Origin: Zhengitettix transpicula
Taxonomy: Eukaryota > Arthropoda > Insecta > Orthoptera > Tetrigidae
Assembly (NCBI GenBank): GCA_037074705.1
Contig: JAYJMR010000032.1
Span: 124,001 to 188,000 of the forward strand
Direction of reading: 5' to 3'
Length of the DNA: 64,000 bases
Made by a program: the position numbers and the translations under genes. A model generated the notes under the pieces. That model was given only the letters and a program-made list of their open reading frames with translations, was not told where the DNA came from and did not search any database. Positions 7,531-53,276 of the stretch are shown one piece after another. Position 1 is the first letter of the stretch. The number at the start of each line of letters is the position of its first letter.

Positions 7531-7580
7531 CAGTGTCCCCGCTCACAGTGTCCCCGAAAACAGTGTCCCCGCACACAGTG

Positions 7581-28780: not shown

Positions 28781-30017
28781 TCCCCGCACACAGTGTCCCC
28801 GCACTCAGTGTCCCCGCACACAGTGTCCCCGAACACAGTGTCCCCGCACTCCGTGTCTCCGCACTCCGTGTCCCCGCACTCAGTGTCCCTGCACACAGAG
28901 TCCCCGCACACAGTGTCCCCGCACTCCGTGTCCCTGCACACAGTGTCCCCGCACACAGTGTCCCCGCACCCAGTGTCCCCGCACACAGTGTCCTCGCACA
29001 CAGTGTCCCTGCACACAGTGTCCCTGCACACAGTGTCCCTGCACACAGTGTCCCCGCACACAGTGTCCCTGCACACAGTGTCCCCGCACACAGTGTCCCT
29101 GCACACAGTGTCCCCGCACACAGTGTCCTCGCACTCCGTGCCCTGCACACAGTGTCCCCGCACACAGTGTCCCCGCAAACAGTGTCCCCGCACACAGTGT
29201 CTCCGCACACAGTGTCCCCGCACACAGTGTCCCCGCACACAGTGTCCCCGCATTCCGTGTCCCCGCACACAGTGTCCCCGCACACAGTGTCCCTGCACAC
29301 AGTGTCCCTGCACACAGTGTCCCTGCACACAGTGTCCCTGCACACAGTGTCCCTGCACACAGTGTCCCCGCACACAGTGTCCCCGCACTCCGTGTCCCCG
29401 CACACAGTGTCCCTGCACACAGTGTCCCCGCACACACTGTCCCCGCACACAGTGTCCCCGCATTCCGTGTCCCCGCACACAGTGTCCCCGCATTCCGTGT
29501 CCCCGCACTCCGTGTCTCCGCACACAGTGTCCCCGCACACAGTGTCCCCGCACACTGTGTCCCCGCATTCCGTGTCTCTGCACACAGTGTCCCTGCACAC
29601 AGTGTCCCTGCACACAGTGTCCTCGCACACAGTGTCCCCGCAAACAGTGTCCCCGCACACAGTGTCCCCGCTTACAGTGTCCCTGCACACAGTGTCCCTG
29701 CACACAGTTTCCCTGCACACAGTGTCCCCGCACTCCGTGAACCTGCACACAGTGTCCCTGCACACAGTGTCCCCGCACACAGTGTCCCCGCACACAGTGT
29801 CCCAGCACACAGTGTCCCAGCACACAGTGTCCCCGCACACAGTGTCCCCGCACACAGTGTCCCTGCACACAGTTTCCCTGCACACAGTGTCCCTGCACAC
29901 AGTGTCCCCGCACACAGTGTCCCCGCACACAGTGTCCCCGCACACAGTGTCCCCGCACACAGTGTCCCTGCACACAGTGTCCCTGCACACAGTGTCCCCG
30001 CACACAGTGTCCCCGCA

Positions 30018-30182
30018 GAAAAACGCTTTTAGCTCCTTAAGGCTCCAGCTAGCGATTTGCTGGTGACGTCATCCTCTTCAGCGGAAACGCTTCTATTAAA
30101 TGAGACGCATAACTGACGCGAAAGGACGCACATTCTGGAGAAAACAAGCAAAAAGTGAAAAAAACAGAAAAAAACGTAAAAA
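30018..30182 (+). repeat. Divergent edge monomer at junction 1
   Basis: This is the first 149-bp-family monomer of array 1, joined directly to the 15-bp satellite after CCCCGCA. It is the most diverged monomer in the array: it reads CTCCTTAAGGCTCCAGC where others read CTCCTAAACGGCTGCAGC, GATTTGCTGG instead of GACCTGCGGG, and CTATTAAATGAGACGCATAAC instead of CCATAGGATGAGACCCATAAC. It still keeps TGACGTCA. Edge divergence is typical of satellite arrays, where exchange homogenises the middle better than the ends. Confidence 0.9.
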
Positions 30183-30968
30183 CGGTTTTAGCTCCTAAAC
30201 GGCTGCAGTTAGCGACATGCAGGTGACGTCATCGTTATCCGATTGAACGCTTCCATAGCATGAGACCCATAACTCACGCGAAAAGACGCACATTTTGGAG
30301 AAAACAAGCAAAAAACGAAAAATACAGAAAAACGCCTTTAGCTCCTAATCAACTGCAGATAGTGACCTGCGGGTGACGTCATCGTCTTCAGTGGGAACGT
30401 TTCCATAGGATGAGACCAATAACTCACGAGAAAAGACGTACATTTTTGAGAAAATAAGCAAAAATTGAAAAAACAGAAAAACGCCTGTAGCTCCTAAACG
30501 GCTGCTGCTAGCGACCTGCGGGTGACGGCATCGTATTGAGCGGGGACGCTGCTATAGAATGAGACCCATAACTCACGCGAAAAGACGCACGTTTGGGAAA
30601 AACAAGCAAAAAGTAAAAAAACAGAAAAACGTCTTCAGCTTCTAAACGGCTGCAGCAAGTGACCTGCAGGTGACGTCATCGTCTTCAGCGGGAACGCTTT
30701 AATAGGATTAGACCCATACCTCACGCGAAAAGACGCACATTTGAGCGAAAAGAAGCATAAAGTGAAAAAAACAGAAATCGCCTGTAGCTCCTAAACGACT
30801 GCTGCTAGCGACCTGCGCTTGACGTCATCGTCTTCAAAGGGGACGCTTCTATAAGATGAGACCAGTAACTCACGCAAAAAGACGCACATTTGGGAAAAAA
30901 CAAGCAAAAAGTAAAGAAACAGAAAAACGCCTTCAGCTCCTAAACGGCTGCAGCTAGCGACCTGCGGG

Positions 30969-30976
30969 TGACGTCA
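30969..30976. other. TGACGTCA palindrome in a 149-bp monomer (representative)
   Basis: The 8-bp palindrome TGACGTCA equals the full cAMP-response element bound by CREB/ATF bZIP proteins. It occurs at the same place in 16 of the 29 monomers of array 1 by my reading. Most of the others have TGACGGCA or a TTTGGTCA form. The same monomer has CTGCAG at 30948-30953 and the dyad GGAA-CGC-TTCC at 30989-30999. Whether any protein binds here is unknown; the match to the motif is visible, the function is inference. Confidence 0.3.
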
Positions 30977-33900
30977 TCGTCTTCAGCGGGAACGCTTCCA
31001 TAGGATAAGATCCATAACGGAAGCGAAAAGACGCACATTCTGAAAAAAACAAGCAAAAAGTGAAAAAAACAGAAAAAAACGGAAAAACGCCTTTAGCTCC
31101 TAAACGGCTGCAGTTAGTGACATGCAGGTGACGGCATCGTCTTCAGCTGCAACGCTTCAATAGGATGAGACCCATAACTCATGCGAAAAGACGCACATTT
31201 GGAAGAAAACAAGCAAAAAACGAAAAATACAGAAAACGCCTTTAGCTAATAAACAACTGCAGATATTGACCTGCGGGTTTGGTCATCATCTTCAGCCGGA
31301 ACGCTTCCATAGGATGAGACCCATAAATCATGCGAAAAGACGTACATTTTTGAGAAAACAAACAAAAAGTGAAAAAAACAGAAAAACGCCTTTAGCTCCT
31401 AAACAACTGCAGCTAGCGACCTGCGGGTGACGTCATCGTCTTCAGCTGGAAAGCTTCCATAGGATGAGAGATATTTAACTTACGCGAAAAGACGCACATT
31501 TTGGAGAAAACAAGCAAAATGTTAAAAAACATAAAAACGCCTGTAGCTCCTAAACGGCTGCATCTAGCGACCTGCGGGTGACGTCATCGTCTGCAGCGGG
31601 AAATCTTTCATAGGATTAGACCCATAACTCACTCGAAAAGCCGCACATTTGAGCGAAAAGAAACATAAAGTGAAAAAAACAGAAAAACGCCTGTAGCTCT
31701 TAAACGGCTGCTGCTAGCGACCTGCGGGTGACGTCATCGTATTCAGCGGGGACGCTTCTATAAGATGAGACCCATAACTCACGCGAAAAGACGCACATTT
31801 GGGAAAAAATAAGCAAAAAGTAAAAAAAACAGAAAAACGCCTTCAGCTTTTAACGGCTGCAGCTATTGACCTGCGGGTGACGTCATCGTTTCAACTGGAA
31901 CGCTTCCATAGGACGCGAACCATAACTGACGAGTAAAGACCCACATTCTGGAGAAAACAAGCAAAAAGTGAAAAAAAACAGAAAAAAAACAGAAAAACGC
32001 CTTTAGCTCCAAAACGGCTGCAGCTAACGACATACAAGTGACGGCATCGTATTCAGCTGGAACGCTTCCATATTATGAGAGATATAACTCACGCAAAAAG
32101 ACGCACATTTGGGAGAAAACAAGCAAAAGTAAAAAAAACCAGAAAAACGCCTGTAGCTCCTAAACGGCTGCAGCTAGCGATCTGCGGGTGACGTCACCGT
32201 CTTCAGCGGGAACGCTTTTATTTGATTAGACCCATAACTCACGCAAAAAACGCACATTTGGGAGAAAACAAGCAAAAAGTGAAAAAAACAGAAAAAAGCC
32301 TTTAGCACCTTAACAACTGCAGCTTGCGACCTGCGGGTGACGTCATCGTCTTCAGCGTGAACGCTTTCATAGGATGAGAACCATAGCTCACGCGAAAAGA
32401 CGCACATTTGAGCGAAAAGAAGCATAAAGTGAAAAAAACAGAAAAACGCCTGTAGCTCCTAAACACCTGCAGCTAGCGACCTGCGGGTGACGGCAACGTC
32501 TTCAGCGGCAACGCTACCACAGGATGAGACCCATAACTGACGCGAAAGGACACACATTTTGGAGAAAACAAGCAAAAAGTAAAAAAAAACAGAAAAACGC
32601 CTTTAGCTCCTACACGGCTGCTGCTAGCGACCTGCGGGTGACGTCATCGTCTGCAGCGGGAACGCTTTCATAGGATTGGACCCATAACTCACGCGAAAAG
32701 ACGCACATTTGAGCGAAAAGAAGCATAAAGTGAAAAAAACAGAAAAACGCCTGTAGCTCCAAAACAGCTGCAGCTAGCGACCTGCGGGTGACGGCATCGT
32801 CTTCAGCGGCAACGCTACCATACGATGAAACCGATAACTGACGAGAAAGGACGCACATTTTGGAGAAAACAAGCAAGAAGTGAAAAAAACAGAAAAACGC
32901 CTTAAGCTTCTAAACAACTGCAGCTAGGGACCTGCGGGTGACGTCATCGTCTTCAGCGGGAACGCTTTAATAGGATTAGACCCATACCTCACGCAAAAAG
33001 ACGCACATTTGGAAGAAAACAAGCAAAAAACAAAAAATACAGAAAAACGCCTTTAGCTCCTAAACAACTGCAGATATTGACCTGCGGGTGACGTCATCGT
33101 CTTCAGCGGGAACGCTTCCACAGGATGAGAACCATAAATCATGCGAAAAGACGTACATTTTTGAGAAAAAAAACAAAAAGTGAAAAAAACTAAAAAACGC
33201 CTTTAGCTCCTAAACGGCTGCAGCTAGCGACCTGCGGGTGACATCATCGTCTTCAGCGGGAAAGGTTTTATAGGATTAGACCAATAACTCACGCGAAAAG
33301 ACGCACATTTGAGCGAAAAGAAGCATAAAGTGAAAAAAACAGAAAAACGCCTCTAGCTCCTAAACGACTGCTGCTAGCGACCTGTGGTTGACGGCATCGT
33401 CTTCAGGGGGGACGCTTCTATAGGAGGAGACCCATAACTCACGCAAAAAGACGCACATTTGGGGAAAACAAGCAAAAAGTGAAAAAAACAGAAAAACGCC
33501 TTTAGCTCCTAAACGGCTGCAGTTAGCGACATGCGGGTGACGGCATCGTCTGCAGCGGGAAATCTTTCATAGGATTAGACCCATAACTCACTCGAAAAGA
33601 CGCACATTTTAGCGAAAAGAAACATAAAGTGAAAAAAACAGAAAAAAACAGTAAAACACCTTTAGCTCCTAAACGGCTGCAGTTAGCGACATGCAGGTGA
33701 CGTCATCGTCTTCAGCTGCAACGCTTCCATAGGATGAGACCCATAACTCACGCGAAAAGACGCACATTTGGAAGAAGACAAGCAAAAAACGAAAAATACA
33801 GAAAAACGCCTTTAGCTCCTAAACAACTGAGGATATTGACCTGCGGGTTTGGTCATCGTCTTCAGCCGGAACGCTTCCATAGGATGAGACCCATAAATCA

Positions 33901-34403
33901 TGCGAAAAGACGTACATTTTTGAGAAAAAAAACAAAAAGTGAAAAAACAGAAAAACGCCTTAAGCTTCTAAACGGCTGCAGCTAGCGACCTTCGGGTGAC
34001 ATAATCGTCTTCAGCGGGAAAGCTTTTATAGGATTAGACCCATAACTCACGCGAAAAGACGCACATTTGAGCGAAAAGAAGCATAATGTTAAAAAAACCG
34101 AAAAACGCCTGTAGCTCCTAAACGACTGCTGCTAGCGATCTGCGGTTGACGGCATCGTCTTCAGCGTGGTCGCTTCTATCGGAGGAGACCCACAACTCAC
34201 GCAAAAAGACGCACATTTGGGGAAAACAAGCAAAAAGTGAAAAAAACAGAAAAACGCCTTTAGCTCCTAAACGGCTGCAGTTAGCGACATGCGGGTGACG
34301 GCATCGTCTGCAGCGGGAAATCTTTCATAGGATTAGACCCATAACTCACTTGAAAAGACGCACATTTTAGCGAAAAGAAACATAAAGTGAAAAAAACAGA
34401 AAA

Positions 34404-34440
34404 ACGCCTTTAGCTCTTAAACGGCACACAGTGTGCCCGC
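34404..34440 (+). repeat. Junction 3: 149-bp array to 15-bp block
   Basis: The last monomer of array 1 stops about 20 bases after its CGCC landmark, within TCTTAAACGG, and continues straight into CACACAGTGTGCCCGC. The bases CGGC can belong to either satellite: monomers read AAACGGCTGCAG, and a known 15-bp variant reads CCCGGCACACAG. The exact breakpoint is therefore ambiguous by about four bases. Confidence 0.9.
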
Positions 34441-35450
34441 ATTCCATGTCCCCGCACACAGTGTCCTCGCACACAGTGTCCCCGCACACAGTGTCCCTGC
34501 ACACAGTGTCCCTGCACACAGTGTCCCTGCACACAGTGTCCCCGCACACAGTGTCCCCGCAAACAGTGTCCCCGCACACAGTGTCCCCGCTTACAGTGTC
34601 CCTGCACCCAGTGTCCTTGCACACAGTGTCCCTGCACACATTGTCCCCGCATTCCGTGTCCCTGCACACAGTGTCCCTGCACACAGTGTCCCCGCACACA
34701 GTGTCCCCGCACACAGTTTCCCAGCACACAGTGTCCCCGCACACAGTGTCCCCGCACACAGTGTCCCCGCACACAGTGTCCCCGCACACAGTGTCCCCGC
34801 ATTCCGTGTCCCCGCACACAGTGTCCGCACTCCGTGTCCCCGCACTCCGTGTCCCCGCACAAAGGTGTCCCCGCACATAGTGTCCCCGCACACAGTGTCC
34901 CTGCACACAGTGTCCCTGCACACAGTGTCCCCTCACACAGTGTCCCCGCACACAGTGTCCCCGCACACAGTGTCCCCGCACACAGAGTCCCCGCTCTCCG
35001 TGTCCCCGCACTCCGTGTCTCCGCACACAGTGTCCCCGCACACAGTGTCCCCGCATTCCGTGTCCCCGCACTCCGTGTCCCCGCACACAGTGTCCCTGCA
35101 CACAGTGTCCCCGCACACAGTGTCGCCGCACACAGTGTCTCCGCACACAGTGTCCCGGCACACAGTGTCCCCGCACACGGTGTCCCCGCTCTCCGTGTCC
35201 CCGCACTCCGTGTCTCCGCACACAGTGTCCCCGCACACAGTGTCCCCGCACTCCGTGTCCCTGCACACAGTGTCCTAGCACACAGTGTCCCCGCACACAG
35301 TGTCCCCGCACACAGTGTCCCCGCACACAGTGTCCCCGCACTCAGTGTCTCCGCACTCCGTGTCCCCGCACTCAGTGTCCCTGCACACAGTGTCCCCGCA
35401 CACAGTGTCCCCGCACTCCGTGTCCCTGCACACAGTGTCCCCGCACTCCA

Positions 35451-37533
35451 TGTCTCCGCACTCCGTGTCCCCGCACTCAGTGTCCCTGCACACAGTGTCC
35501 CCGCACACAGTGTCCCCGCACTCCGTGTCCCTGCACACAGTGTCCCCGCACACAGTGTCCCCGCACACAGTGTCCCCGCACACAGTGTCCCCGCACACAG
35601 TGTCCCCGCACACAGTGTCCATGCACACAGATTCCCCGCACACAGTGTCCCCGCACTCCGTGTCCCCGCAGTCAGTGTCCCCGCACACAGTGTCCCCGCA
35701 CTCCGTGACCCCGCACACAGTGTCCCCGCACACAGTGTCCCCGCACAAAGTGTCCCCGCACACAGTGTCCCCGCACACAGTGTCCCCGCACACAGTGTCC
35801 CTGCACACAGTGTCCCCGCACACAGTGTCCCCGCACACAGTGTCCCCGCACACAGTGTCCCCGCACACAGTGTCTCCGTACACAGTGACCCGGCACACAG
35901 TGTCCCCGCACACAGTGTATCCGCTTTCCGTGTCCACGCACTCCGTGTCTCCGCACACAGTGTCCCCGCACACAGTGTCCCCGCACACAGTGTCCCCGCA
36001 CTCTGTGTCCCTGCACACAGTGTTCACGCACACAGTGTCCCCGCACACAGTGTCCCCGCACACAGTGTCCACGCGCACAGTGTCCCTGCATTCAGTGTCC
36101 CTGCACACAGTGTCCCCGCACACAGTGTCCCCGCACACAGTGTTCCCGCACACAGTGTCCCCGCACACAGTGTCCCCGCACACAGTGTCCCCGCACACAG
36201 TGTGCCCGCATTCCGTGTCCCCGCACACAGTGTCCCCGCACACAGTGTCCCCGCACACAGTGTCTCCGCACACAGTGTCCCGGCACACAGTGTCCCCGCA
36301 CACAGTGTCCCCGCTCTCCGTGTCCCCGCACTCCGTGTCTCCGCACACAGTGTCCCCGCACACAGTGTCCCCGCACACAGTGTCCCCGCACTCCGTGTCC
36401 CTGCACACAGTGTCCCCGCACACAGTGTCCCCGCACACTGTGTCCCCGCACACAGTGTCCCCGCACACAGTGTCCCCGCACTCAGTGTCTCCGCACTCCG
36501 TGTCCCCGCACTCAGTGTCCCTGCACACAGTGTCCCCGCACACAGTGTCCCCGCACTCCGTGTCCCTGCACACAGTGTCCCCGCACTCCGTGTCTCCGCA
36601 CTCCGTGTCCCCGCACTCAGTGTCCCTGCACACAGTGTCCCCGCACACAGTGTCCCCGCACTCCGTGTCCCTGCACACAGTGTCCCCGCACACAGTGTCC
36701 CCGCACACAGTGTCCCCGCACACAGTGTCCCCGCACACAGTGTCCCCGCACACAGTGTCCGTGCACACAGTGTCCCCGCACACAGTGTCCCCGCACTCCG
36801 TGTCCCCGCACTCAGTGTCCCCGCACACAGTGTCCCCGCACTCCGTGACCCCGCACACAGTGTCCCCGCACACAGTGTCCCCGCACACAGTGTCCCCGCA
36901 CACAGTGTCCCCGCACACAGTGTCCCCGCACACAGTGTCCCCGCACTCCGTGTCCCCGCACTCCGTGTCTCTGCACACAATGTCCCCGCACACAGTGTCC
37001 CCGAACACAGTGTCTCTGCACACAGTGTCCCCGCACACAGTGTCCCCGCACACAGTGTCCCCGCACACTGTCCCCGCACACAGTGTCCCCGCACACAGTG
37101 TCCCCGCTCTCCTTGTCCCCGCACTCCGTGTCTCCGCACACAGTGTCTCCGCACACAGTGTCCCCGCACACAGTGTCCCCGCACACAGTGTCCCCGCATT
37201 CCGTGTCCCCGCACACAGTGTCTCCGCACACAGTGTCCCTGCACACAGTGTCCCCGCGCACAGTGTCCCCGCACACAGTGTCCCCGCACACTGTGTTTCC
37301 GCACACAGTGTCCCGGCACACAGTGTCCCCGCACACAGTGTACCCGCTCTCTGTGTCCCCGCACTCCGTGTCCTTGCACACAGTGTCCCCGCACACAGTG
37401 TCCCCGCACACAGTGTCCACGCACACAGTGACCCTGCACACAGTGTCCCTGCACACAGTGTCCCCGCACACAGTGTCCCCGCACACAGTGTCCGCGCACA
37501 CAGTGTCCCCGCACACAGTGTGCCCGCATTCCG
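35451..37533 (+). repeat. 2083-bp tandem duplication, copy 1
   Basis: This is copy 1 of a 2083-bp direct tandem duplication inside block B. Landmarks that repeat at exactly +2083 are the 13-bp unit GCACACTGTCCCC (37063, 39146), the GTCCGTGCACACAG variant (36758, 38841) and the TGTCTCCGCACTCC start (35451, 37534). The length is one less than a multiple of three and is not a multiple of 15, because off-length units lie inside. Boundaries are good to within a few units. Confidence 0.85.
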
Positions 37534-39616
37534 TGTCTCCGCACTCCGTGTCCCCGCACTCAGTGTCCCTGCACACAGTGTCCCCGCACACAGTGTCCCC
37601 GCACTCCGTGTCCCTGCACACAGTGTCCCCGCACACAGTGTCCCCGCACACAGTGTCCCCGCACACAGTGTCCCCGCACACAGTGTCCCCGCACACAGTG
37701 TCCATGCACACAGATTCCCCGCACACAGTGTCCCCGCACTCCGTGTCCCCGCAGTCAGTGTCCCCGCACACAGTGTCCCCGCACTCCGTGACCCCGCACA
37801 CAGTGTCCCCGCACACAGTGTCCCCGCACAAAGTGTCCCCGCACACAGTGTCCCCGCACACAGTGTCCCCGCACACAGTGTCCCTGCACACAGTGTCCCC
37901 GCACACAGTGTCCCCGCACACAGTGTCCCCGCACACAGTGTCCCCGCACACAGTGTCTCCGTACACAGTGACCCGGCACACAGTGTCCCCGCACACAGTG
38001 TATCCGCTTTCCGTGTCCACGCACTCCGTGTCTCCGCACACAGTGTCCCCGCACACAGTGTCCCCGCACACAGTGTCCCCGCACTCTGTGTCCCTGCACA
38101 CAGTGTTCACGCACACAGTGTCCCCGCACACAGTGTCCCCGCACACAGTGTCCACGCGCACAGTGTCCCTGCATTCAGTGTCCCTGCACACAGTGTCCCC
38201 GCACACAGTGTCCCCGCACACAGTGTTCCCGCACACAGTGTCCCCGCACACAGTGTCCCCGCACACAGTGTCCCCGCACACAGTGTGCCCGCATTCCGTG
38301 TCCCCGCACACAGTGTCCCCGCACACAGTGTCCCCGCACACAGTGTCTCCGCACACAGTGTCCCGGCACACAGTGTCCCCGCACACAGTGTCCCCGCTCT
38401 CCGTGTCCCCGCACTCCGTGTCTCCGCACACAGTGTCCCCGCACACAGTGTCCCCGCACACAGTGTCCCCGCACTCCGTGTCCCTGCACACAGTGTCCCC
38501 GCACACAGTGTCCCCGCACACTGTGTCCCCGCACACAGTGTCCCCGCACACAGTGTCCCCGCACTCAGTGTCTCCGCACTCCGTGTCCCCGCACTCAGTG
38601 TCCCTGCACACAGTGTCCCCGCACACAGTGTCCCCGCACTCCGTGTCCCTGCACACAGTGTCCCCGCACTCCGTGTCTCCGCACTCCGTGTCCCCGCACT
38701 CAGTGTCCCTACACACAGTGTCCCCGCACACAGTGTCCCCGCACTCCGTGTCCCTGCACACAGTGTCCCCGCACACAGTGTCCCCGCACACAGTGTCCCC
38801 GCACACAGTGTCCCCGCACACAGTGTCCCCGCACACAGTGTCCGTGCACACAGTGTCCCCGCACACAGTGTCCCCGCACTCCGTGTCCCCGCACTCAGTG
38901 TCCCCGCACACAGTGTCCCCGCACTCCGTGACCCCGCACACAGTGTCCCCGCACACAGTGTCCCCGCACACAGTGTCCCCGCACACAGTGTCCCCGCACA
39001 CAGTGTCCCCGCACACAGTGTCCCCGCACTCCGTGTCCCCGCACTCCGTGTCTCTGCACACAATGTCCCCGCACACAGTGTCCCCGAACACAGTGTCTCT
39101 GCACACAGTGTCCCCGCACACAGTGTCCCCGCACACAGTGTCCCCGCACACTGTCCCCGCACACAGTGTCCCCGCACACAGTGTCCCCGCTCTCCTTGTC
39201 CCCGCACTCCGTGTCTCCGCACACAGTGTCTCCGCACACAGTGTCCCCGCACACAGTGTCCCCGCACACAGTGTCCCCGCATTCCGTGTCCCCGCACACA
39301 GTGTCTCCGCACACAGTGTCCCTGCACACAGTGTCCCCGCGCACAGTGTCCCCGCACACAGTGTCCCCGCACACTGTGTTTCCGCACACAGTGTCCCGGC
39401 ACACAGTGTCCCCGCACACAGTGTACCCGCTCTCTGTGTCCCCGCACTCCGTGTCCTTGCACACAGTGTCCCCGCACACAGTGTCCCCGCACACAGTGTC
39501 CACGCACACAGTGACCCTGCACACAGTGTCCCTGCACACAGTGTCCCCGCACACAGTGTCCCCGCACACAGTGTCCGCGCACACAGTGTCCCCGCACACA
39601 GTGTGCCCGCATTCCG
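37534..39616 (+). repeat. 2083-bp tandem duplication, copy 2
   Basis: This is copy 2 of the 2083-bp duplication, directly abutting copy 1. The copies are nearly identical where I compared them; one clear substitution is CCCTACAC at 38711 against CCCTGCAC at 36628. At its right end (about 39616) it diverges after GTGCCCGCATTCCGTGTC. The last roughly 0.9 kb is also the first part of the 3224-bp duplication. Confidence 0.85.
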
Positions 39617-41935
39617 TGTCCCCGCACACAGTGTCCCCGCACACAGTGTCCCCGCACTCCGTGTCCCGGCACACAGTGTCCCCGCACACAGTGTCCCCGC
39701 ACACAGTGTCCCCGCACACAGTGTCCCCGCACACAGTGTCCCCGCACACAGTGTCCCCGCACTCCGTGTCCCTGCACACAGTGTCCCTGCACACAGTGTC
39801 CCCGCACTCCGTGTCCCCGCACAGAGTGTCCCCGCACACAGTGTCCCCGCTCACAGTGTCCCCGCACACAGTGTCCCCGCACTCCGTGTCTTCGCACTCC
39901 GTGTCCCCGCACATAGTGTCCCCGCACACAGTGTCCCCGCACTCCGTGTCCCCGCACACAGTGTCCCTGCACACAGTGTCCCCGCACACAGTGTCCGCGC
40001 ACTCAGTGTCCCCGCACACAGTGTCCCCGCACACAGTGTCCCCGCACTCCGTGTCTCCGCACTCCGTGTCCCCGCACTCCGTGTCCCCGCACACAGTGTC
40101 CCCGCACACAGTGTCTCTGCACACAGTGTCCCCGCACACAGTGTCCCCGCACACAGTGTCCCCGCACACAGTGTCCCCGCACACAGTGTCCCCGCTCTCC
40201 GTGTTCCCGCACTCCGTGTCTCCTCACACAGTGTCCCCGCACACAGTGTCCCCGCACACAGTGTCCCCGAAACACAGTGTCCCCGCATTCCGTGTCCCCG
40301 CACTCCGTGTCCCCGCACACAGTTTCCCTGCACACAGTGTCCCCGCACACAGTGTCCCCGCACACAGTGTCCCCGCACACAGTGTCTCCGCACACAGTGT
40401 CCCGGCACACAGTGTCCCCGCACACAGTGTATCCGCTCTCCGTGTCCCCGCACTCCGTGTCTCCGCACACAGTGTCCCCGCACACAGTGTCCCCGCACAC
40501 AGTGTCCCCCCACTCCGTGTCCCTGCACACAGTGTTCTCGCACACAGTGTCCCCGCACACAGTGTCCCCGCACACAGTGTCCACGCGCACAGTGTCCCTG
40601 CACACAGTGTCCCTGCACACAGTGTCCCCGCACTCCGTGTCCCCGCACTCCGTGTCCCTGCACACAGTGTCCCCGCACACAGTGTCCCCGCACACAGTGT
40701 CTCTGCACACAGTGTCCCCGCACACAGTGTCCCCGCACACAGTGTCCCCGCACACAGTGTCCCCGCACACAGTGTCCCCGCACACAGTGTCCCCGCACAC
40801 AGTGTCCCCGCTCTCCGTGTCCCCGCACTCCGTGTCTCCGCACACAGTGTCTCCGCACACAGTGTCCCCGCACACAGTGTCCCCGCATTCCGTGTCCCCG
40901 CACTCCGTGTCCCCGCACACAGTGTCCCTGCACATAGTGTCCCCGCACACAGTGTCCCCGCACTCCGTGTCCCCGCACACAGTGTCCCCGCACACAGTGT
41001 CCCCGCACTCAGTGTCCGCGCACACAGTGTCCCCGCACACAGTGTCCCCGCACTCCGTGTCTCTGCACTCCGTGTCCCCGCACTCAGTGTCCCTGCACAC
41101 AGTGTCCCCGCAAACAGTGTCCCCGCATTCCGTGTCCCTGCACACAGTGTCCCTGCACACAGTGTCCCCGCACACAGTGTCTTCGCACACGGTGTCCCCG
41201 CACTCCGTGTCCCCGCACACAGTGTCCCCGCATTCCGTGGCCCCGCACACAGTGTCCCCGCACACAGTTTCCCGGCACACAGTGTCCCCGCACACAGTGT
41301 CCCCGCACACAGTGTCCCCGCACTCCGTGTCCCCGCACACAGTGTTTCCGCACTCAGTGTCCCCGGACTCCGTGTCTCCGCACACAGTGTCCCTGCACAC
41401 AGTGTCCCTGCACACAGTGTCCCTGCACACAGTGTCCCCGCACACAGTGTCCCCGCACACAGTGTCCCCGCACACAGTGTCCCCGCACACAGTGTCCCCG
41501 CACACAGTGTCCTCGCACACAGTGTCCCCGCACACAGTGTCTCCGCACACAGTGTCCCCGCACACAGTGTCCCCGCACACAGTGTCCCCGCACACAGTGT
41601 CCCCGCACACAGTGTCCCCGCACACAGTGTCCCCGCACACAGTGTCCCCGCACTCCGTGTCTCCGCACTCCGTGTCCCCGCACTCCGTGTCCCTGCACAC
41701 AGTGTCCCCGCACTCAGTGTCCCCGCACTCCGTGTCCCTGCACACATTGTCCCCGCACACAGTGTCCCCGCACACAGTGTCCCCGCACACAGTGTCCCCG
41801 CACACAGTGTCCCCGCACACAGTGTCCCTGCACACAGTGTCCCCGCACACAGTGTCCCTGCACACAGTTTCCCCGCACACAGTGTCCCCGCACACAGTGT
41901 CCCTGCACACAGTGTCCCTGCACACAGTGTCCCCG
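38712..41935 (+). repeat. 3224-bp tandem duplication, copy 1
   Basis: This is copy 1 of a second young tandem duplication in block B. Landmarks at +3224 are GCACACTGTCCCC (39146, 42370), GTCCGTGCAC (38841, 42065) and the 16-bp unit CCCCGAAACACAG. One visible substitution is AGTTTCC at 40324 against AGTGTCC at 43548. It partly overlaps copy 2 of the 2083-bp duplication, so it formed after, or together with, that event. Confidence 0.85.
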
Positions 41936-44900
41936 CACACAGTGTCCCCGCACACAGTGTCCCCGCACTCCGTGTCCCTGCACACAGTGTCCCCGCACAC
42001 AGTGTCCCCGCACACAGTGTCCCCGCACACAGTGTCCCCGCACACAGTGTCCCCGCACACAGTGTCCGTGCACACAGTGTCCCCGCACACAGTGTCCCCG
42101 CACTCCGTGTCCCCGCACTCAGTGTCCCCGCACACAGTGTCCCCGCACTCCGTGACCCCGCACACAGTGTCCCCGCACACAGTGTCCCCGCACACAGTGT
42201 CCCCGCACACAGTGTCCCCGCACACAGTGTCCCCGCACACAGTGTCTCCGCACTCCGTGTCCCCGCACTCCGTGTCTCTGCACACAATGTCCCCGCACAC
42301 AGTGTCCCCGAACACAGTGTCTCTGCACACAGTGTCCCCGCACACAGTGTCCCCGCACACAGTGTCCCCGCACACTGTCCCCGCACACAGTGTCCCCGCA
42401 CACAGTGTCCCCGCTCTCCTTGTCCCCGCACTCCGTGTCTCCGCACACAGTGTCTCCGCACACAGTGTCCCCGCACACAGTGTCCCCGCACACAGTGTCC
42501 CCGCATTCCGTGTCCCCGCACACAGTGTCTCCGCACACAGTGTCCCTGCACACAGTGTCCCCGCGCACAGTGTCCCCGCACACAGTGTCCCCGCACACTG
42601 TGTTTCCGCACACAGTGTCCCGGCACACAGTGTCCCCGCACACAGTGTACCCGCTCTCTGTGTCCCCGCACTCCGTGTCCTTGCACACAGTGTCCCCGCA
42701 CACAGTGTCCCCGCACACAGTGTCCACGCACACAGTGTCCCTGCACACAGTGTCCCTGCACACAGTGTCCCCGCACACAGTGTCCCCGCACACAGTGTCC
42801 GCGCACACAGTGTCCCCGCACACAGTGTGCCCGCATTCCGTGTCCCCGCACACAGTGTCCCCGCACACAGTGTCCCCGCACTCCGTGTCCCGGCACACAG
42901 TGTCCCCGCACACAGTGTCCCCGCACACAGTGTCCCCGCACACAGTGTCCCCGCACACAGTGTCCCCGCACACAGTGTCCCCGCACTCCGTGTCCCTGCA
43001 CACAGTGTCCCTGCACACAGTGTCCCCGCACTCCGTGTCCCCGCACAGAGTGTCCCCGCACACAGTGTCCCCGCTCACAGTGTCCCCGCACACAGTGTCC
43101 CCGCACTCCGTGTCTTCGCACTCCGTGTCCCCGCACATAGTGTCCCCGCACACAGTGTCCCCGCACTCCGTGTCCCCGCACACAGTGTCCCTGCACACAG
43201 TGTCCCCGCACACAGTGTCCGCGCACTCGGTGTCCCCGCACACAGTGTCCCCGCACACAGTGTCCCCGCACTCCGTGTCTCCGCACTCCGTGTCCCCGCA
43301 CTCCGTGTCCCCGCACACAGTGTCCCCGCACACAGTGTCTCTGCACACAGTGTCCCCGCACACAGTGTCCCCGCACACAGTGTCCCCGCACACAGTGTCC
43401 CCGCACACAGTGTCCCCGCTCTCCGTGTTCCCGCACTCCGTGTCTCCTCACACAGTGTCCCCGCACACAGTGTCCCCGCACACAGTGTCCCCGAAACACA
43501 GTGTCCCCGCATTCCGTGTCCCCGCACTCCGTGTCCCCGCACACAGTGTCCCTGCACACAGTGTCCCCGCACACAGTGTCCCCGCACACAGTGTCCCCGC
43601 ACACAGTGTCTCCGCACACAGTGTCCCGGCACACAGTGTCCCCGCACACAGTGTATCCGCTCTCCGTGTCCCCGCACTCCGTGTCTCCGCACACAGTGTC
43701 CCCGCACACAGTGTCCCCGCACACAGTGTCCCCCCACTCCGTGTCCCTGCACACAGTGTTCTCGCACACAGTGTCCCCGCACACAGTGTCCCCGCACACA
43801 GTGTCCACGCGCACAGTGTCCCTGCACACAGTGTCCCTGCACACAGTGTCCCCGCACTCCGTGTCCCCGCACTCCGTGTCCCTGCACACAGTGTCCCCGC
43901 ACACAGTGTCCCCGCACACAGTGTCTCTGCACACAGTGTCCCCGCACACAGTGTCCCCGCACACAGTGTCCCCGCACACAGTGTCCCCGCACACAGTGTC
44001 CCCGCACACAGTGTCCCCGCACACAGTGTCCCCGCTCTCCGTGTCCCCGCACTCCGTGTCTCCGCACACAGTGTCTCCGCACACAGTGTCCCCGCACACA
44101 GTGTCCCCGCATTCCGTGTCCCCGCACTCCGTGTCCCCGCACACAGTGTCCCTGCACATAGTGTCCCCGCACACAGTGTCCCCGCACTCCGTGTCCCCGC
44201 ACACAGTGTCCCCGCACACAGTGTCCCCGCACTCAGTGTCCGCGCACACAGTGTCCCCGCACACAGTGTCCCCGCACTCCGTGTCTCTGCACTCCGTGTC
44301 CCCGCACTCAGTGTCCCTGCACACAGTGTCCCCGCAAACAGTGTCCCCGCATTCCGTGTCCCTGCACACAGTGTCCCTGCACACAGTGTCCCCGCACACA
44401 GTGTCTTCGCACACAGTGTCCCCGCACTCCGTGTCCCCGCACACAGTGTCCCCGCATTCCGTGGCCCCGCACACAGTGTCCCCGCACACAGTTTCCCGGC
44501 ACACAGTGTCCCCGCACACAGTGTCCCCGCACACAGTGTCCCCGCACTCCGTGTCCCCGCACACAGTGTTTCCGCACTCAGTGTCCCCGGACTCCGTGTC
44601 TCCGCACACAGTGTCCCTGCACACAGTGTCCCTGCACACAGTGTCCCTGCACACAGTGTCCCCGCACACAGTGTCCCCGCACACAGTATCCCCGCACACA
44701 GTGTCCCCGCACACAGTGTCCCCGCACACAGTGTCCTCGCACACAGTGTCCCCGCACACAGTGTCTCCGCACACAGTGTCCCCGCACACAGTGTCCCCGC
44801 ACACAGTGTCCCCGCACACAGTGTCCCCGCACACAGTGTCCCCGCACACAGTGTCCCCGCACTCCGTGTCCCCGCACACAGTGTCCCCGCACACAGTGTC

Positions 44901-45189
44901 CCCGCACACAGTGTCCCCGCACTCCGTGTCTCCGCACTCCGTGTCCCCGCACTCCGTGTCCCTGCACACAGTGTCCCCGCACTCAGTGTCCCCGCACTCC
45001 GTGTCCCTGCACACATTGTCCCCGCACACAGTGTCCCCGCACACAGTGTCCCCGCACACAGTGTCCCTGCACACAGTGTCCCCGCACACAGTGTCCCTGC
45101 ACACAGTTTCCCCGCACACAGTGTCCCCGCACACAGTGTCCCTGCACACAGTGTCCCTGCACACAGTGTCCCCGCACACAGTGTCCCCG
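41936..45189 (+). repeat. 3224-bp tandem duplication, copy 2
   Basis: This copy follows copy 1 directly. It stays collinear for most of its length, then gains four 15-bp units near 44.87 kb and lacks two units near 45.03 kb, giving about 3254 bp. The right boundary, before CGCTTACAG, is approximate. Confidence 0.8.
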
Positions 45190-46658
45190 CACACAGTGTC
45201 CCCGCACACAGTGTCCCCGCTTACAGTGTCCCTGCACACAGTGTCCCTGCACACAGTGTCCCTGCACACAGTGTCCCCGCACTCCGTGTCTCCGCACTCC
45301 GTGTCCCCGCACTCAGTGTCCCTGCACACAGAGTCCCCGCACACAGTGTCCCCGCACTCCGTGTCCCTGCACACAGTGTCCCCGCACACAGTGTCCCCGC
45401 ACCCAGTGTCCCCGCACACAGTGTCCTCGCACACAGTGTCCCTGCACACAGTGTCCCTGCACACAGTGTCCCTGCACACAGTGTCCCCGCACACAGTGTC
45501 CCTGCACACAGTGTCCCCGCACACAGTGTCCCTGCACACAGTGTCCCCGCACACAGTGTCCCCGCACTCCGTGTCCCTGCACACAGTGTCCCCGCACACA
45601 GTGTCCCCGCACACAGTGTCTCCGCACACAGTGTCCCCGCACACAGTGTCCCCGCACACAGTGTCCCCGCATTCCGTGTCCCCGCACACAGTGTCCCCGC
45701 ACACAGTGTCCCTGCACACAGTGTCCCTGCACACAGTGTCCCTGCACACAGTGTCCCTGCACACAGTGTCCCTGCACACAGTGTCCCCGCACACAGTGTC
45801 CCCGCACTCCGTGTCCCCGCACACAGTGTCCCTGCACACAGTGTCCCCGCACACACTCTCCCGCACACAGTGTCCCCGCATTCCGTGTCCCCGCACACAG
45901 TGTCCCCGCATTCCGTGACCCCGCACTCCGTGTCTCCGCACACAGTGTCCCCGAACACAGTGTCCCCGCACACTGTGTCCCCGCATTCCGTGTCTCTGCA
46001 CACAGTGTCCCTACACACAGTGTCCCTGCACACAGTGTTTCCGCACACAGTGTCCCCGCAAACAGTCTCCCCGCACACAGTGTCCCCGCTTACAGTGTCC
46101 CTGCACACAGTGTCCCTGCACACAGTTTCCCTGCACACAGTGTCCCCGCACTCCGTGAACCTGCACACAGTGTCCCTGCACACAGTGTCTCCGGACACAG
46201 TGTCCCCGCACACAGTGTCCCAGCACAGAGTGTCCCCGCACACAGTGTCCCCGCACACAGTGTCCCCGAACACAGTGTCCCCGCACACAGTGTCCCCGCA
46301 TTCCGTGTCCCCGCACACAGTGTCCGCACTCCGTGTCCCCACACTCCGTGTCCCCGCACACAGTGTCCCTGCACACAGTGTCCCCGCACACAGTGTCCCC
46401 GAACACAGTGTCCCCGCACACAGTGTCCCTGCACACAGTGTCCCTGCACACAGTGTCCCTGCACACAGTGTCCCCGCACACAGTGTCCCCGCACACAGTG
46501 TTCCCGCACACAGTGTCCCTGCACACAGTGTCCCTGCACACAGTGTCCCCGCACACAGAGTCCCCGCACACAGTGTCCCCGCACACAGTGTCCCCGCACA
46601 CAGTGTCCCTGCACACAGTGTCCCTGCACACATTGTCCCCGCACACAGTATCTCCGCA

Positions 46659-46823
46659 GAAAAACGCCTTTAGCTCCTTAAGGCTCCAGCTAGCGATTTG
46701 CTGGTGACGTCTTCCTCTTCAGCGGAAACGCTTCTATTAAATGAGACGCATAACTGACGCGAAAGGACGCACATTCTGGAGAAAACAAGCAAAAAGTGAA
46801 AAAAACAGAAAAAAACGTAAAAA
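46659..46823 (+). repeat. Divergent edge monomer at junction 2
   Basis: This is the counterpart of the edge monomer at 30018. It shares all the distinctive changes and the same breakpoint (CCGCA followed by GAAAAACGC). I see two base differences: CGCC here against CGCT, and GACGTCTTCC here against GACGTCATCC. The second change destroys the TGACGTCA palindrome. Shared private changes plus a shared breakpoint show that the two junctions are copies of one event. Confidence 0.9.
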
Positions 46824-48204
46824 CGGTTTTAGCTCCTAAACGGCTGCAGTTAGCGACATGCAGGTGACGTCATCGTTATCAGATGGAACGCTTCCATAGC
46901 ATGAGACCCATAACTCACGCGAAAAGACGCACATTTTGGAGAAAACAAGCAAAAAACGAAAAATACAGAAAAACGCCTTTAGCTCCTAAACAACTGCAGA
47001 TAGTGACCTGCGGGTGACGTCATCGTCTTCAGCGGGAACGCTTCCATAGGATGAGACCAATAACTCACGAGAAAAGACGCACATTTGAGCGAAAAGAAGC
47101 ATAAAGTGAAAAAAACAGAAATCGCCTGTAGCTCCTAAACGACTGCTGCTAGCGACCTGCGCTTGACGTCATCGTCTTCAAGGGGGACGCTTCTATAAGA
47201 TGAGACCAGTAACTCACGAAAAAAGACGCACATTTGGGAAAAAACAAGCAAAAAGTAAAGAAACAGAAAAACGCCTTCAGCTCCTAAACGGCTGCAGCTA
47301 GCGACCTGCGGGTGACGTCATCGTCTTCAGCGGGAACGCTTCCATAGGATAAGATCCATAACGGAAGCGAAAAGACGCACATTCTGAAAAAAACAAGCAA
47401 AAAGTGAAAAAAACAGAAAAAAACGGAAAAACGGCTTTAGCTCCTAAACGGCTGCAGTTAGTGACATGCAGGTGACGGCATCGTCTTCAGCTGCAACGCT
47501 TCCATAGGATGAGACCCATAACTCATGCGAAAAGACGCACATTTGGAAGAAAACAAGCAAAAAACGAAAAAAACAGAAAAACGCCTTTAGCTCCTAAACA
47601 ACTGCAGATATTGACCTGCGGGTTTGGTCATCATCTTCAGCCGGAACGCTTCCATAGGATTAGACCCATAACTCACTCGAAAAGACGCACATTTGAGCGA
47701 AAAGAAACATAAAGTGAAAAAAACAGAAAAACGCCTGTAGCTCTTAAACGGCTGCTGCTAGCGACCTGCGGGTGACGTCATCGTATTCAGCGGGAACGCT
47801 TCTATAAGATGAGACCCATAACTCACGCGAAAAGACGCACATTTGGGAAAAAATAAGCAAAAAGTAAAAAAAAACAGAAAAACGCCTTCAGCTTTTAACG
47901 GCTGCAGCTAGTGACCTGCGGGTGACGTCATCGTTTCAGCTGGAACGCTTCTATAGGACGCGACCCATAACTGACGCGTAAAGACCCACATTCTGGAGAA
48001 AACAAGCAAAAAGTGAAAAAAACAGAAAAAAAACAGAAAAACGCCTTTAGCTCCAAAACGGCTGCAGCTAACGACATACAAGTGACGGCATCGTATTCCG
48101 CTGGAACGCTTCCATATGATGAGAGATATAACTCACGCAAAAAGACGCACATTTGGGAGAAAACAAGCAAAAGTAAAAAAAAACAGAAAAACGCCTGTAG
48201 CTCC

Positions 48205-49848
48205 TAAACGGCTGCAGCTAGCGACCTGCGGGTGACGGCAACGTCTTCAGCGGCAACGCTACCACAGGATGAGACCCATAACTGACGCGAAAGGACGCAC
48301 ATTTTGGAGAAAACAAGCAAAAAGTAAAAAAAACAGAAAAACGCCTTAAGCTTCTAAACAACTGCAGCTAGGGATCTGCGGGTGACGTCATCGTCTTCAG
48401 CGGGAACGCTTTAATAGGATTAGACCCATACCTCACGCGAAAAGACGCACATTTGAGCGAAAAGAAGCATAAAGTTAAAGTTAGCGACATGCAGATGACG
48501 TCTTCGTCTTCAGCTGCAACGCTTCCATAGGATGAGACCCATAACTCACTCGAAAAGACGCACATTTGGAAGAAAACATGCAAAAAACGAAAAATACAGA
48601 AAAACGCCTTTAGCTCCTAAACAACTGCAGATATTGACCTGCGGGTGACGTCATCGTCTTCAGCGGGAACGCTTAAATATGATGAGACCCATAACTCACG
48701 CGAAAAGACGTACATTTTTGAGAAAACAAACAAAAAGTAAAAAAAACAGAAAAACGCCTTTAGCTCCTAAACGGCTGCTGCTAGCGACCTGCGGGTGACG
48801 TCATCGTCTGCAGCGGGAACGCTTTCATAGGATTGGACCCATAACTAACGCGAAAAGACGCACATTTGAGCGAAAAGAAGCATAAAGTGAAAAAAACAGA
48901 AAAACGCCTGTAGCTCCAAAACAGCTGCAGCTAGCGACCTGCGGGTGACGGCATCGTCTCAGCGGCAACGCTACCATACGATGAGACCGATAACTGACGA
49001 GAAAGGACGCACATTTTGGAGAAAACAAGCAAAAAGTGAAAAAAACAGAAAAACGCCTTAAGCTTCTAAACAACTGCAGCTAGGGACCTGCGGGTGACGT
49101 CATCGTCTTCAGCGGGAACGCTTTAATAGGATTAGACCCATACCTCACGCAAAAAGACGCACATTTGGGAAAAAACAAGCAAAAAGTAAAAAAACAGAAA
49201 AACGCCTTCAGCTCCTAAACGGCTGCAGCTAGCGACCTGCGGGTGACGACATCGTCTTCAGCGGGAACGCTTCCATAGGATGAGACCCATAACGGAAGCG
49301 AAAGGACGCACATTCTGAAAAAAACAAGCAAAAAGTGAAGAAAACAGAAAAAAACGGAAAAACGCATTTAGCTCCTAAACGGCTGTAGTTAGCGACATGC
49401 AGATGACGTCTTCGTCTTCAGCTGCAACGCTTCCATAGGATGAGACCCATAACTCACGCGAAAAGACGCACATTTGGAAGAAAACAAGCAAAAAACGAAA
49501 AATACAGAAAAACGCCTATAGCTCCTAAACAACTGCAGATATTGACCTGCGGGTGACGTCATCGTCTTCAGCGGGAACGCTTCCACAGGATGAGACCCAT
49601 AAATCATGCGAAAAGACATACATTTTTGAGAAAAAAAACAAAAAGTGAAAAAAACTGAAAAACGCCTTTAGCTCCTAAACGGCTGCAGCTAGCGACCTGC
49701 GGGTGACATCATCGTCTTCAGCGGGAAAGGTTTTATAGGATTAGACCAATAACTCACGCGAAAAGACGCACATTTGAGCGAAAAGAAGCATAAAGTGAAA
49801 AAAAACAGAAAAACGCCTGTAGCTACTAAACGACTGCTGCTAGCGACC
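48205..49848 (+). repeat. Eleven-monomer module in array 2, copy 1
   Basis: This is a higher-order module of about eleven 149-bp monomers, repeated at 50876-52519 (+2671, about 18 monomers). It contains the GGTGACGGCAACG monomer (48235, 50906) and the shortened monomer at 48469. Confidence 0.75.
48469..48495 (+). repeat. Shortened 149-bp monomer junction, copy 1
   Basis: CATAAAGTTAAAG runs directly into TTAGCGACATGCAG, skipping about 37 bases that carry the A-tract end, the CGCC landmark and CTGCAG. The same deletion is present at 51140, so it arose once and was copied with the module. Confidence 0.85.
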
Positions 49849-50875
49849 TGCGGGTGACGTTATCGTCTTCAGCTGGAACGCTTCCATAGGATGAGAGATA
49901 TTTAACTTACGCGAAAAGACGCACATTTTGGAGAAAACAAGCAAAATGTTAAAAAACATAAAAACGCCTGTAGCTCCTAAACGGCTGCATCTAGCGACCT
50001 GCGGGTGACGTCATCGTCTGCAGCGGGAAATCTTTCATAGGATTAGACCCATAACTCACTCGAAAAGACGCACATTTGAGCGAAAAGAAACATAAAGTGA
50101 AAAAAACAGAAAAATGCCAGTAGCTCTTAAACGGCTGCTGCTAGCGACCTGCGGGTGACGTCATCGTATTCAGCGTGGACGCTTCTAAATGATGAGACCC
50201 ATAACTCACGCGAAAAGACGCACATTTGGGAAAAAATAAGCAAAAAGTAAAAAAAAACAGAAAAACGCCTTCAGCTTTTAACGGCTGCAGCTAGTGACCT
50301 GCGGGTGACGTCATCGTTTCAGCTGGAACGCTTCCATAGGACGCGACCCATAACTGACGCGTAAAGACCCACATTCTGGAGAAAACAAGCAAAAAGTGAA
50401 AAAAACATCAAAACGCCTTTAGCTCCAAAACGGCTGCAGCTAACGACATACAAGTGACGGCATCGTATTCAGCTGGAACGCTTCCATATGATGAGAGATA
50501 TAACTCACGCAAAAAGACGCACATTTGGGAGAAAACAAGCAAAAGTAAAAAAAACCAGAAAAACGCCTGTAGCTCCTAAACGGCTGCGGCTAGCGATCTG
50601 CGGGTGACGTCACCGTCTTCAGCGGGAACGCTTTTATTTGATTAGACCCATAACTCACGCAAAAAACGCACATTTGGGAGAAAACAAGCAAAAAGTGAAA
50701 AAAACAGAAAAAAGCCTTTAGCACCTTAACAACTGCAGCTTGCGACCTGCGGGTGACGTCATCGTCTTCAGCGTGAACGCTTTCATAGGATGAGACCCAT
50801 AGCTCACGCGAAAAGACGCACATTTGAGCGAAAAGAAGCATAAAGTGAAAAAAACAGAAAAACGCTTGTAGCTCC

Positions 50876-52519
50876 TAAACGGCTGCAGCTAGCGACCTGC
50901 GGGTGACGGCAACGTCTTCAGCGGCAACGCTACCACAGGATGAGACCCATAACTGACGCGAAAGGACGCACAATTTGGAGAAAACAAGCAAAAAGTAAAA
51001 AAAACAGAAAAACGCCTTAAGCTTCTAAACAACTGCAGCTAGGGACCTGCGGGTGACGTCATCGTCTTCAGCGGGAACGCTTTAATAGGATTAGACCCAT
51101 ACCTTACGCGAAAAGACGCACATTTGAGCGAAAAGAAGCATAAAGTTAAAGTTAGCGACATGCAGATGACGTCTTCGTCTTCAGCTGCAACGCTTCCATA
51201 GGATGAGACCCATAACTCACTCGAAAAGACGCACATTTGGAAGAAAACATGCAAAAAACGAAAAATACAGAAAAACGCCTTTAGCTCCTAAACAACTGCA
51301 GATATTGACCTGCGGGTGACGTCATCGTCTTCAGCGGGAACGCTTAAATATGATAAGACCCATAACTCACGCGAAAAGACGTACATTTTTGAGAAAACAA
51401 ACAAGAAGTAAAAAAAACAGAAAAACGCCTTTAGCTCCTAAACGGCTGCTGCTAGCGACCTGCGGGTGACGTCATCGTCTGCAGCGGGAACGCTTTCATA
51501 GGATTGGACCCATAACTCACGCGAAAAGACGCACATTTGAGCGAAAAAAAGCATAAAGTGAAAAAAACAGTAAAACGCCTGTAGCTCCAAAACAGCTGCA
51601 GCTAGCGACCTGCCGGTGACGGTATCGTCTTCAGCGGCAACGCTACCATACGATGAGACCGATAACTGACGAGAAAGGACGCACATTTTGGAGAAAACAA
51701 GCAAAAAGTGAAAAAAACAGAAAAACGCCTTAAGCATCTAAACAACTGCAGCTAGGGACCTGCGGGTGACGTCATCGTCTTCAGCGGGAACGCTTTAATA
51801 GGATTAGACCCATACCTCACGCAAAAAGACGCACATTTGGGAAAAAAAAAGCAAAAAGTAAAAAAACAGAAAAACGCCTTCAGCTCCTAAACGGCTGCAG
51901 CTAGCGACCTGCGGGTGACGACATCGTCTTCAGCGGGAACGCTTCCATAGGATGAGACCCATAACGGAAGCGAAAGGACGCACATTCTGAAAAAAACAAG
52001 CAAAAACTAAAGAAAACAGAAAAAAACGGAAAAACGCATTTAGCTCCTAAACGGCTGTAGTTAGCGACATGCAGATGACGTCTTCGTCTTCAGCTGCAAC
52101 GCTTCCATAGGATGAGACCCATAACTCACGCGAAAAGACGCACATTTGGAAGAAAACAAGCAAAAAACGAAAAATACAGAAAAACGCCTTTAGCTCCTAA
52201 ACAACTGCAGATATTGACCTGCGGGTGACGTCATCGTCTTCAGTGGGAACGCTTCCACAGGATGAGACCCATAAATCATGCGAAAAGACGTACATTTTTG
52301 AGAAAAAAAACAAAAAGTGAAAAAAACTGAAAAACGCCTTTAGCTCCTAAACGGCTGCAGCTAGCGACCTGCGGGTGACATCATCGTCTTCAGCGGGAAA
52401 GGTTTTATAGGATTAGACCAATAACTCACGCGAAAAGACGCACATTTGAGCGAAAAGAAGCATAAAGTGAAAAAAACAGAAAAACGCCTGTAGCTCCTAA
52501 ACGACTGCTGCTAGCGACC
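50876..52519 (+). repeat. Eleven-monomer module in array 2, copy 2
   Basis: This is the counterpart of 48205-49848. Agreement ends within a GACTGCTGCTAGCGACCTG monomer, where copy 1 continues CGGGTGACGTTATC and this copy continues TGGTTGACGGCATC. Confidence 0.75.
51140..51166 (+). repeat. Shortened 149-bp monomer junction, copy 2
   Basis: This is identical in form to 48469-48495 and lies 2671 bp further on. It is a diagnostic mark for the array 2 duplication; I did not see it in array 1. Confidence 0.85.
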
Positions 52520-53239
52520 TGTGGTTGACGGCATCGTCTTCAGGGGGACGCTTCTATAGGAGGAGACCCATAACTCACGCAAAAAGACGCACATTTGGGA
52601 AAAAAAAGGAAAAAGTAAAAAAACAGAAAACCGCCTTCAGCACCTAAACGGCTGCAGCTAGCGACATGCGGGTGACGTCATCGTCTTCAGCTGGAACGCT
52701 TCCATAGGATGAGACCCATAACTGACGCGAAAGGACGCACATTTTGGAGAAAACAAGCAAAAAGTGAAAAAAACAGAAAAAAACAGTAAAACACCTTTAG
52801 CTCCTAAACGGCTGCAGTTCGCGACATGCAGGTGACGTCATCGTCTTCAGCTGCAACGCTTCCACAGGATGAGACCCATAACTCACGCGAAAAGACGCAC
52901 ATTTGGAAGAAGACAAGCAAAAAACGAAAAATACAGAAAAACGCCTTTAGCTCCTAAACAACTGCAGATATTGACCTGCGGGTTTGGTCATCGTCTTCAG
53001 CCGGAACGCTTCCATAGGATGAGACCCATAAATCATGCGAAAAGGCGTACATTTTTGAGAAAAAAAACAAAAAGTGAAAAAACAGAAAAACGCCTTAAGC
53101 TTCTAAACGGCTGCAGTTAGCGACATGCGGGTGACGGCATCGTCTGCAGCGGGAAATCTTTCATAGGATTAGACCCATAACTCACTCGAAAAGACGCACA
53201 TTTGAGCGAAAAGAAACATAAAGTGAAAAAAACAGAAAA

Positions 53240-53276
53240 ACGCCTTTAGCACTTAAACGGCACACAGTGTGCCCGC
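53240..53276 (+). repeat. Junction 4: 149-bp array to 15-bp block
   Basis: This is the same junction as at 34404-34440, with the same truncated monomer, the same entry into CACACAGTGTGCCCGC and the same CCATG variant just downstream. One base differs in the truncated monomer (AGCACTTAAACGG here, AGCTCTTAAACGG there). It lies 18,836 bp from junction 3. Confidence 0.9.

Follow-up and report, generated by a model that had tools for sequence, protein, structure and literature searches.

A 149-bp satellite array inside a 15-bp satellite, apparently copied together with its surroundings in nested tandem duplications

The growth of satellite DNA is usually inferred from averages, and higher-order repeats, such as those of alpha satellite, are tandem multi-monomer blocks with nested periodicities that usually comprise one family in units of a few kb. 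Satellites can also be combined with other sequence. The excerpted text of a study of Tribolium madens describes the minor satellite TmSat2 lying within the major satellite TmSat1 as cassettes, each bounded by two transition zones that recur and are sharply defined, the number of monomers between them varying (PMC13081366), and the excerpted account of African ape subterminal caps describes arrays of the 32-bp pCht satellite together with segmental-duplication spacers of 32–34 kb (PMC12758386). The locus described here is a new example of a known phenomenon. Its nested history is easy to follow; duplication of this sort is ordinary in satellite DNA, but the record left here is unusually clear.

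The window, the whole stretch of DNA analysed, is 64,000 bp of contig C32 (C32:124,001–188,000; home assembly 993.6 Mb in 337 contigs). The mitochondrial COX1 of this genome contains 7 in-frame TGA codons and translates without interruption under the invertebrate mitochondrial code. All of it is satellite DNA, with a 15-bp satellite (3,538 units in 236 distinct forms, cut end units counted) interrupted by two 149-bp arrays, laid out as follows.

1..30017, + strand: block A, 15-bp satellite, consensus GTGTCCCCGCACACA
30018..34424, + strand: 149-bp array 1, 29 monomers plus 28 bp
34425..46658, + strand: block B, 15-bp satellite, a mosaic of right-flank type and left-flank type
46659..53260, + strand: 149-bp array 2, 44 monomers plus 28 bp, with an internal duplication of about 2,671 bp (18 monomers)
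53261..64000, + strand: block C, 15-bp satellite

The initial annotation had reported that the two satellites alternate and that each kind of border is used twice at the same breakpoint. On re-reading, the borders proved identical at both arrays, with the left one running ...CCGCA / GAAAAACGC and the right one ...TTAAACGG / CACACAGTGTGCCCGCATTCC (the slash marks the border), and the border offsets that it gave, 16,641 on the left and 18,836 on the right, are exact. The letters GCA, which belong to the 15-bp satellite, flank the array on both sides (window 30,015–30,018 and 34,423–34,427), as a 3-bp direct repeat or microhomology at its edges. Because the copies have the same two borders, with this short repeat or microhomology at the edges, the 149-bp array probably first entered the 15-bp satellite in a single event. 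As to an empty site, with both flank types and no array, no 15-bp unit boundary in blocks A, B and C scored well on both flanks (five units per block end excluded).

The palindrome TGACGTCA, a putative CRE-like site, has 39 exact matches between window positions 30,064 and 52,840, all of them inside the two 149-bp arrays with their 73 full monomers; two pairs of monomers in array 2 are shortened to 131–132 bp. Searches gave no Rfam match in window 29,900–34,600, no occurrence of exact 20- and 30-base pieces of either satellite in viral contigs, and none of a 30-base dimer of the 15-bp satellite in the genome contigs searched, a set from which the window's own genome may be absent. This pair of satellites was not found in the literature by sequence-string and topic searches.

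Taken alone, identical borders could reflect a hotspot in the 15-bp satellite at which 149-bp arrays inserted twice, independently of each other. The interior of the arrays argues otherwise. Array-1 monomers are on average 97.1% identical to their best array-2 monomer, against 82.6% for all between-array pairs by the same measure, and 23 of the 29 full array-1 monomers form reciprocal best pairs, 98.2% alike when only substitutions are counted. A single increasing order holds 16 of these 23 pairs, where 20,000 permutations gave a mean of 7.2 and a maximum of 12, and 17 monomers when all 29 best matches are used. The six array-1 monomers that lack a reciprocal partner, and the seven reciprocal pairs outside the single order, make up a disorder, much of which we ascribe to the 18-monomer duplication in array 2, since with it an array-1 monomer may have two candidate partners. 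Apart from that duplication, array 2 appears to differ from array 1 mostly in which whole monomers were gained or lost, and the two arrays are best read as copies of one array.

The flanks extend the likeness. The initial annotation had noted that the first 15-bp variants beside the borders are common to both copies, as they are for 12 of the first 15 aligned units on the right and 6 of 9 on the left, and the sharing reaches well beyond them, with the left flank common to both copies for about 2.4 kb. Between 27,608–30,017 and 44,161–46,658, 118 of 143 aligned 15-bp units are identical; base identity is 94.3% over 2.4 kb with 10 gaps, compared with 89.2–91.5% in 12 random in-phase background pairs. 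On the right, 97.7% of aligned bases are identical in the first kb, with 5 gaps (181 bases). Two observations count against duplication: the 6 of 9 identical units are all that the final ~130 bp before the left border has to offer, and homology of the right flanks past about 1 kb requires large gaps. The variant GTGTGCCCGCATTCC occurs 14 times (window 34,431–59,666), always to the right of array 1 and never in block A, and so marks 15-bp sequence of the right-flank type.

Block B was painted by its best matches to block A (20–30 kb) versus block C. From 34,425 it is C-like or undecided, with an A-like patch in windows starting at 40,892–41,732; beyond the patch the C-like or undecided labels resume as far as about 44.0 kb, windows starting at 44,011–46,050 are A-like, and the last two are undecided. 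Below 20 kb, block A itself often scores C-like where B is C-like, because the second copy of a ~100-kb duplication, discussed below, begins at 6.4 kb of the window. At base level, the 270 bp of B at 43,871–44,140 differ from C (57,580–57,849) at 10 positions. B tracks A from 44,160 onward, without a mismatch as far as 44,230 and with 4 over the 180 bp that follow (0 to 2 per 90 bp); the last A-specific mismatch of B lies at 44,156 and the first C-specific one at 44,171. Such a switch is the scar to be expected if a segment that began at A 27,606 and ended at the homologue of C 57,867 had been duplicated head to tail. The features of this reading are the following.

27606..44158, + strand: putative composite copy 1, 16,553 bp, ends to about 15 bp; left flank, array 1 and right flank, the last with later 2,083- and 3,224-bp duplications
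44159..57867, + strand: putative composite copy 2, 13,709 bp, ends to about 15 bp; left flank, array 2 and right flank
44157..44170, + strand: putative junction of the founder composite duplication, left side tracking C (to about 57,867) and right side A (from about 27,606)
40933..40946, + strand: second copy of the composite junction, apparently a product of the 3,224-bp duplication
35451..39585, + strand: 2,083-bp tandem duplication in block B, 1 mismatch in 2,052
38712..44862, + strand: 3,224-bp tandem duplication in block B, 6 mismatches in a 2,927-bp core, with the composite junction in both copies
6400..6435, + strand: junction of the ~100-kb tandem duplication, from the end of copy I (contig match +105,265, then +105,250) to the start of copy II (match −100,455)

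The copies have both families and both borders in common, and at the junction the right end of one copy meets the left end of the following one. With the largely common order of monomers, the common left flank and a duplication junction between the arrays, we rejected independent insertions, which we consider barely credible. The initial observation is therefore confirmed, and its core inference, that the two-satellite block was duplicated as one piece rather than inserted twice, is upheld on the same three grounds, the block having apparently been copied again inside the ~100-kb duplication.

The size that was proposed for the unit of amplification, 17–19 kb, did not hold. The values of 16.6 and 18.8 kb measure from one border to its counterpart, a span that younger duplications inside the copies have lengthened: with the 2,083- and 3,224-bp extras subtracted, copy 1 comes to 11.2 kb, and with the extra ~2,671 bp subtracted, copy 2 comes to 11.0 kb. 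We infer a founder unit of about 11 kb, which would have run from within one 15-bp stretch to within another, and some of the differences between the copies could be losses; a shift of about 1 kb in the offset of B against C near 56.6–57.5 kb lies outside this sum. Given the assembly, the internal duplications can be placed in time. The 3,224-bp duplication carries the composite junction and is therefore later than the composite duplication, and both it and the 2,083-bp duplication are found in both ~100-kb copies, so they are older than the ~100-kb duplication. These later 3,224-bp and ~100-kb duplications predict that the composite junction should stand at four places, and its 201 bp are indeed matched at 100% at C32 168,060, 164,836, 68,059 and 64,852, with the next best of 129 reported matches at 96% (best 40 of 298 candidates scored). 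The two 2,083-bp copies differ at 1 of 2,052 positions here and at 16 in the other ~100-kb copy, 14 of these within one 200-bp stretch; low divergence here, at an age greater than that of the ~100-kb duplication, hints at later conversion.

On contig C32 (254,538 bp) the 15-bp satellite extends from about 7.5 to 240.8 kb and holds four 149-bp arrays, at 54,024–58,440, 70,644–76,681, 154,018–158,424 and 170,659–177,260; on either side it is flanked by 149-bp arrays in the orientation opposite to that of these four. At one end (C32:240,841–254,538) the 149-bp satellite flips orientation near 247,900, its arms matching at 298 of 300 bases over one 300-bp stretch, a flip that resembles the inverted arrays (macro-dyads) outlined in the excerpted Tribolium account. 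The ~100-kb tandem copies occupy C32 30.0–130.4 kb and 130.4–235.7 kb. A chain of 44 segments covers 95,634 of 100,500 bp with 230 mismatches (0.24%), which is a low estimate, as the diagonal chain takes in only segments at least 98.5% alike. A switch in 15-bp type near 6.3 kb of the window was considered as a lost 149-bp site and proved to be the junction between these two copies.

One or both duplications might be false joins of the assembly, most plausibly the ~100-kb one, for example if haplotypes were laid end to end or a repeat loop was walked twice. Along the chain the ~100-kb copies differ by a figure compatible with alleles, and C32 is labelled as one or the other satellite at every 1-kb step. 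Nevertheless, the chain shifts its offset 43 times, and the ~100-kb copies are unequal in their arrays, by 564 bp in array 2 and 10 bp in array 1. Between the composite copies, reciprocal monomers diverge by 1.8%, and whole monomers have been gained. There are also two local copies of the composite junction in each ~100-kb copy, and the 201 bp identical in all four are set in surroundings that are not identical (6 mismatches in 2,927 in one ~100-kb copy, changes of offset in the other). Taken with these differences, an assembly artefact seems to us unlikely, if still worth reckoning with.

The best explanation, to which we give a probability of roughly 0.77, would be a tandem duplication of a composite of about 11 kb, followed by smaller duplications and then by the ~100-kb duplication, each by unequal exchange or its equivalent. 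As assembled, a segment of about 11 kb, made up of 15-bp satellite, one 149-bp array and 15-bp satellite again, stands twice in tandem, with the junction that can be read between the arrays; smaller tandem duplications then lengthened the two composite copies differently, and a stretch of about 100 kb that contained the composite pair was later duplicated in tandem itself. Since the four independent junctions examined all fall within 15-bp sequence and preserve its register, each step was probably an unequal exchange between misaligned 15-bp tracts, or a break-and-copy repair to the same effect. Among the 7, 13, 8 and 22 units examined at these junctions there is none of a length other than 15 bp, versus 79 of 3,538 overall, and random joining would keep the register about one time in 15 per junction. 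Misassembly by string overlap would also keep it, so the register does not decide the question of an artefact. The 149-bp array would have been carried as a passenger, its length changing mostly by whole monomers.

Alternatively, the composite block could have been re-inserted or copied alongside itself, through circular DNA or long-tract gene conversion, rather than by simple unequal crossing-over. Single borders also occur on two other contigs, C230 and C28, and the T. madens authors, in the excerpted text, point to their own results in T. freemani for the spread of intermingled satellites by circular DNA and by meiotic exchange (PMC13081366). However, all four embedded C32 arrays have the same orientation and the junctions are tandem, with nothing specific to a circle seen, and we regard this route as improbable. 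Stepwise tandem duplication by unequal exchange remains our preferred reading.

The borders were followed through the assembly. The initial annotation had named many copies at 16–19-kb spacing as what would support a genome-scale super-repeat, and the search speaks against one. A pattern search that allowed up to 3 mismatches found five left borders, four on C32 and one on C230, with no match to a reversed control pattern. The right border has at least five full-length matches at 99–100%, four on C32 and one on C28 (DNA search, best 40 of 1,633 candidates scored). Left borders on C32 are spaced at 16,620, 83,374 and 16,641 bp, rather than in many head-to-tail copies at constant spacing. The amplification that we see is two nested single duplications and not a repeating 17–19-kb super-repeat.

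Since C28 and C230 each show one of the two borders, the borders also occur apart. On C28 the right border adjoins an array, about 8 kb long, that ends on its far side against an AT-rich repeat and not 15-bp sequence, so the composite did not always move whole; in the 15-bp flank there, likeness to the window from 34,425 lasts only about 190 bp, after which other matches lead (300-bp windows). The AT-rich repeat, which directly adjoins a 149-bp array around C28:215,800, shows near-copies of one unit in the 800 bases examined. The flank of the C230 left border, compared with block A alone, is just partly collinear with it. A second border from 149-bp to 15-bp sequence (...CCTAAACAACTG / TCCCCGCAC) occurs at C28:99,121, C28:118,465 and C87:104,354; its edge monomer and most of its first 15-bp variants are common to the three places, and the C28 pair is 19.3 kb apart.

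It could be proposed, tentatively and with more doubt than belief on our part, that the two-satellite cassette is the working growth unit of this satellite domain. The 15-bp satellite would offer in-register recombination sites, the 149-bp array would be carried along at the ~11-kb and ~100-kb scales, and at least two border lineages (the second at 19.3-kb spacing on another contig) would have spread independently, so that copying of the cassette would be a repeated process and not one accident. A further suggestion, that the arrangement is kept for a function such as a chromatin or centromere role of the cassette, would find a parallel in a similar proposal in the excerpted account of T. madens cassettes (PMC13081366), and TGACGTCA is frequent in the 149-bp monomer. 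Against this, the array length and the flanks vary between copies, few copies were found, and descent explains the common borders; we think such a role very unlikely here.

In conclusion, successive duplications at this locus can be ordered from the sequence (composite, then kb-scale, then ~100-kb), their junctions can be placed to within a few tens of bases, and the unequal-exchange model becomes testable at named sites. The locus also carries a warning that border-to-border spacing is not the same as the unit of amplification. Compared with higher-order repeats of the alpha-satellite type, it likewise consists of nested tandem blocks, but with two families per unit and at scales of ~11 kb and ~100 kb. 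The composite had been called unusual, a judgement that stands only in softened form beside published satellite-in-satellite cassettes with conserved transition zones (PMC13081366, excerpted text). Both there and here a satellite lies inside a satellite with conserved borders on both sides, one T. madens transition having a 6-nt duplication where our locus has the 3-nt GCA repeat. As in T. madens, transition zones recur, with five left and at least five right borders, only one of the two on C28 and C230, and the second right-border lineage at three places. The excerpts also bring out differences: the T. madens satellites share a 110-bp ancestor, whereas our families have different units; 3,385 of 5,764 TmSat2 arrays have both transitions and an inversion site, the inversion defining the cassette, whereas few copies were found here (PMC13081366). 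No such inversion (macro-dyad) marks the four embedded C32 arrays, all labelled + at 1-kb steps, and scars of tandem duplication can be read here, which we give as a difference from the T. madens cassettes as excerpted (PMC13081366). In Tenebrio molitor, arrays of one satellite likewise directly follow those of another in the TmSat02/TmSat04 terminal blocks, for which the excerpted source describes no common base-level borders or duplication junctions (PMC13192020). The ape caps, finally, are alike in that a short-unit satellite and an unrelated block were amplified jointly into a higher-order arrangement; according to the excerpted text, their spacer is euchromatic in origin and present in about 413 to 700 copies per haplotype (PMC12758386), whereas the block carried here is itself a satellite array, in few copies.
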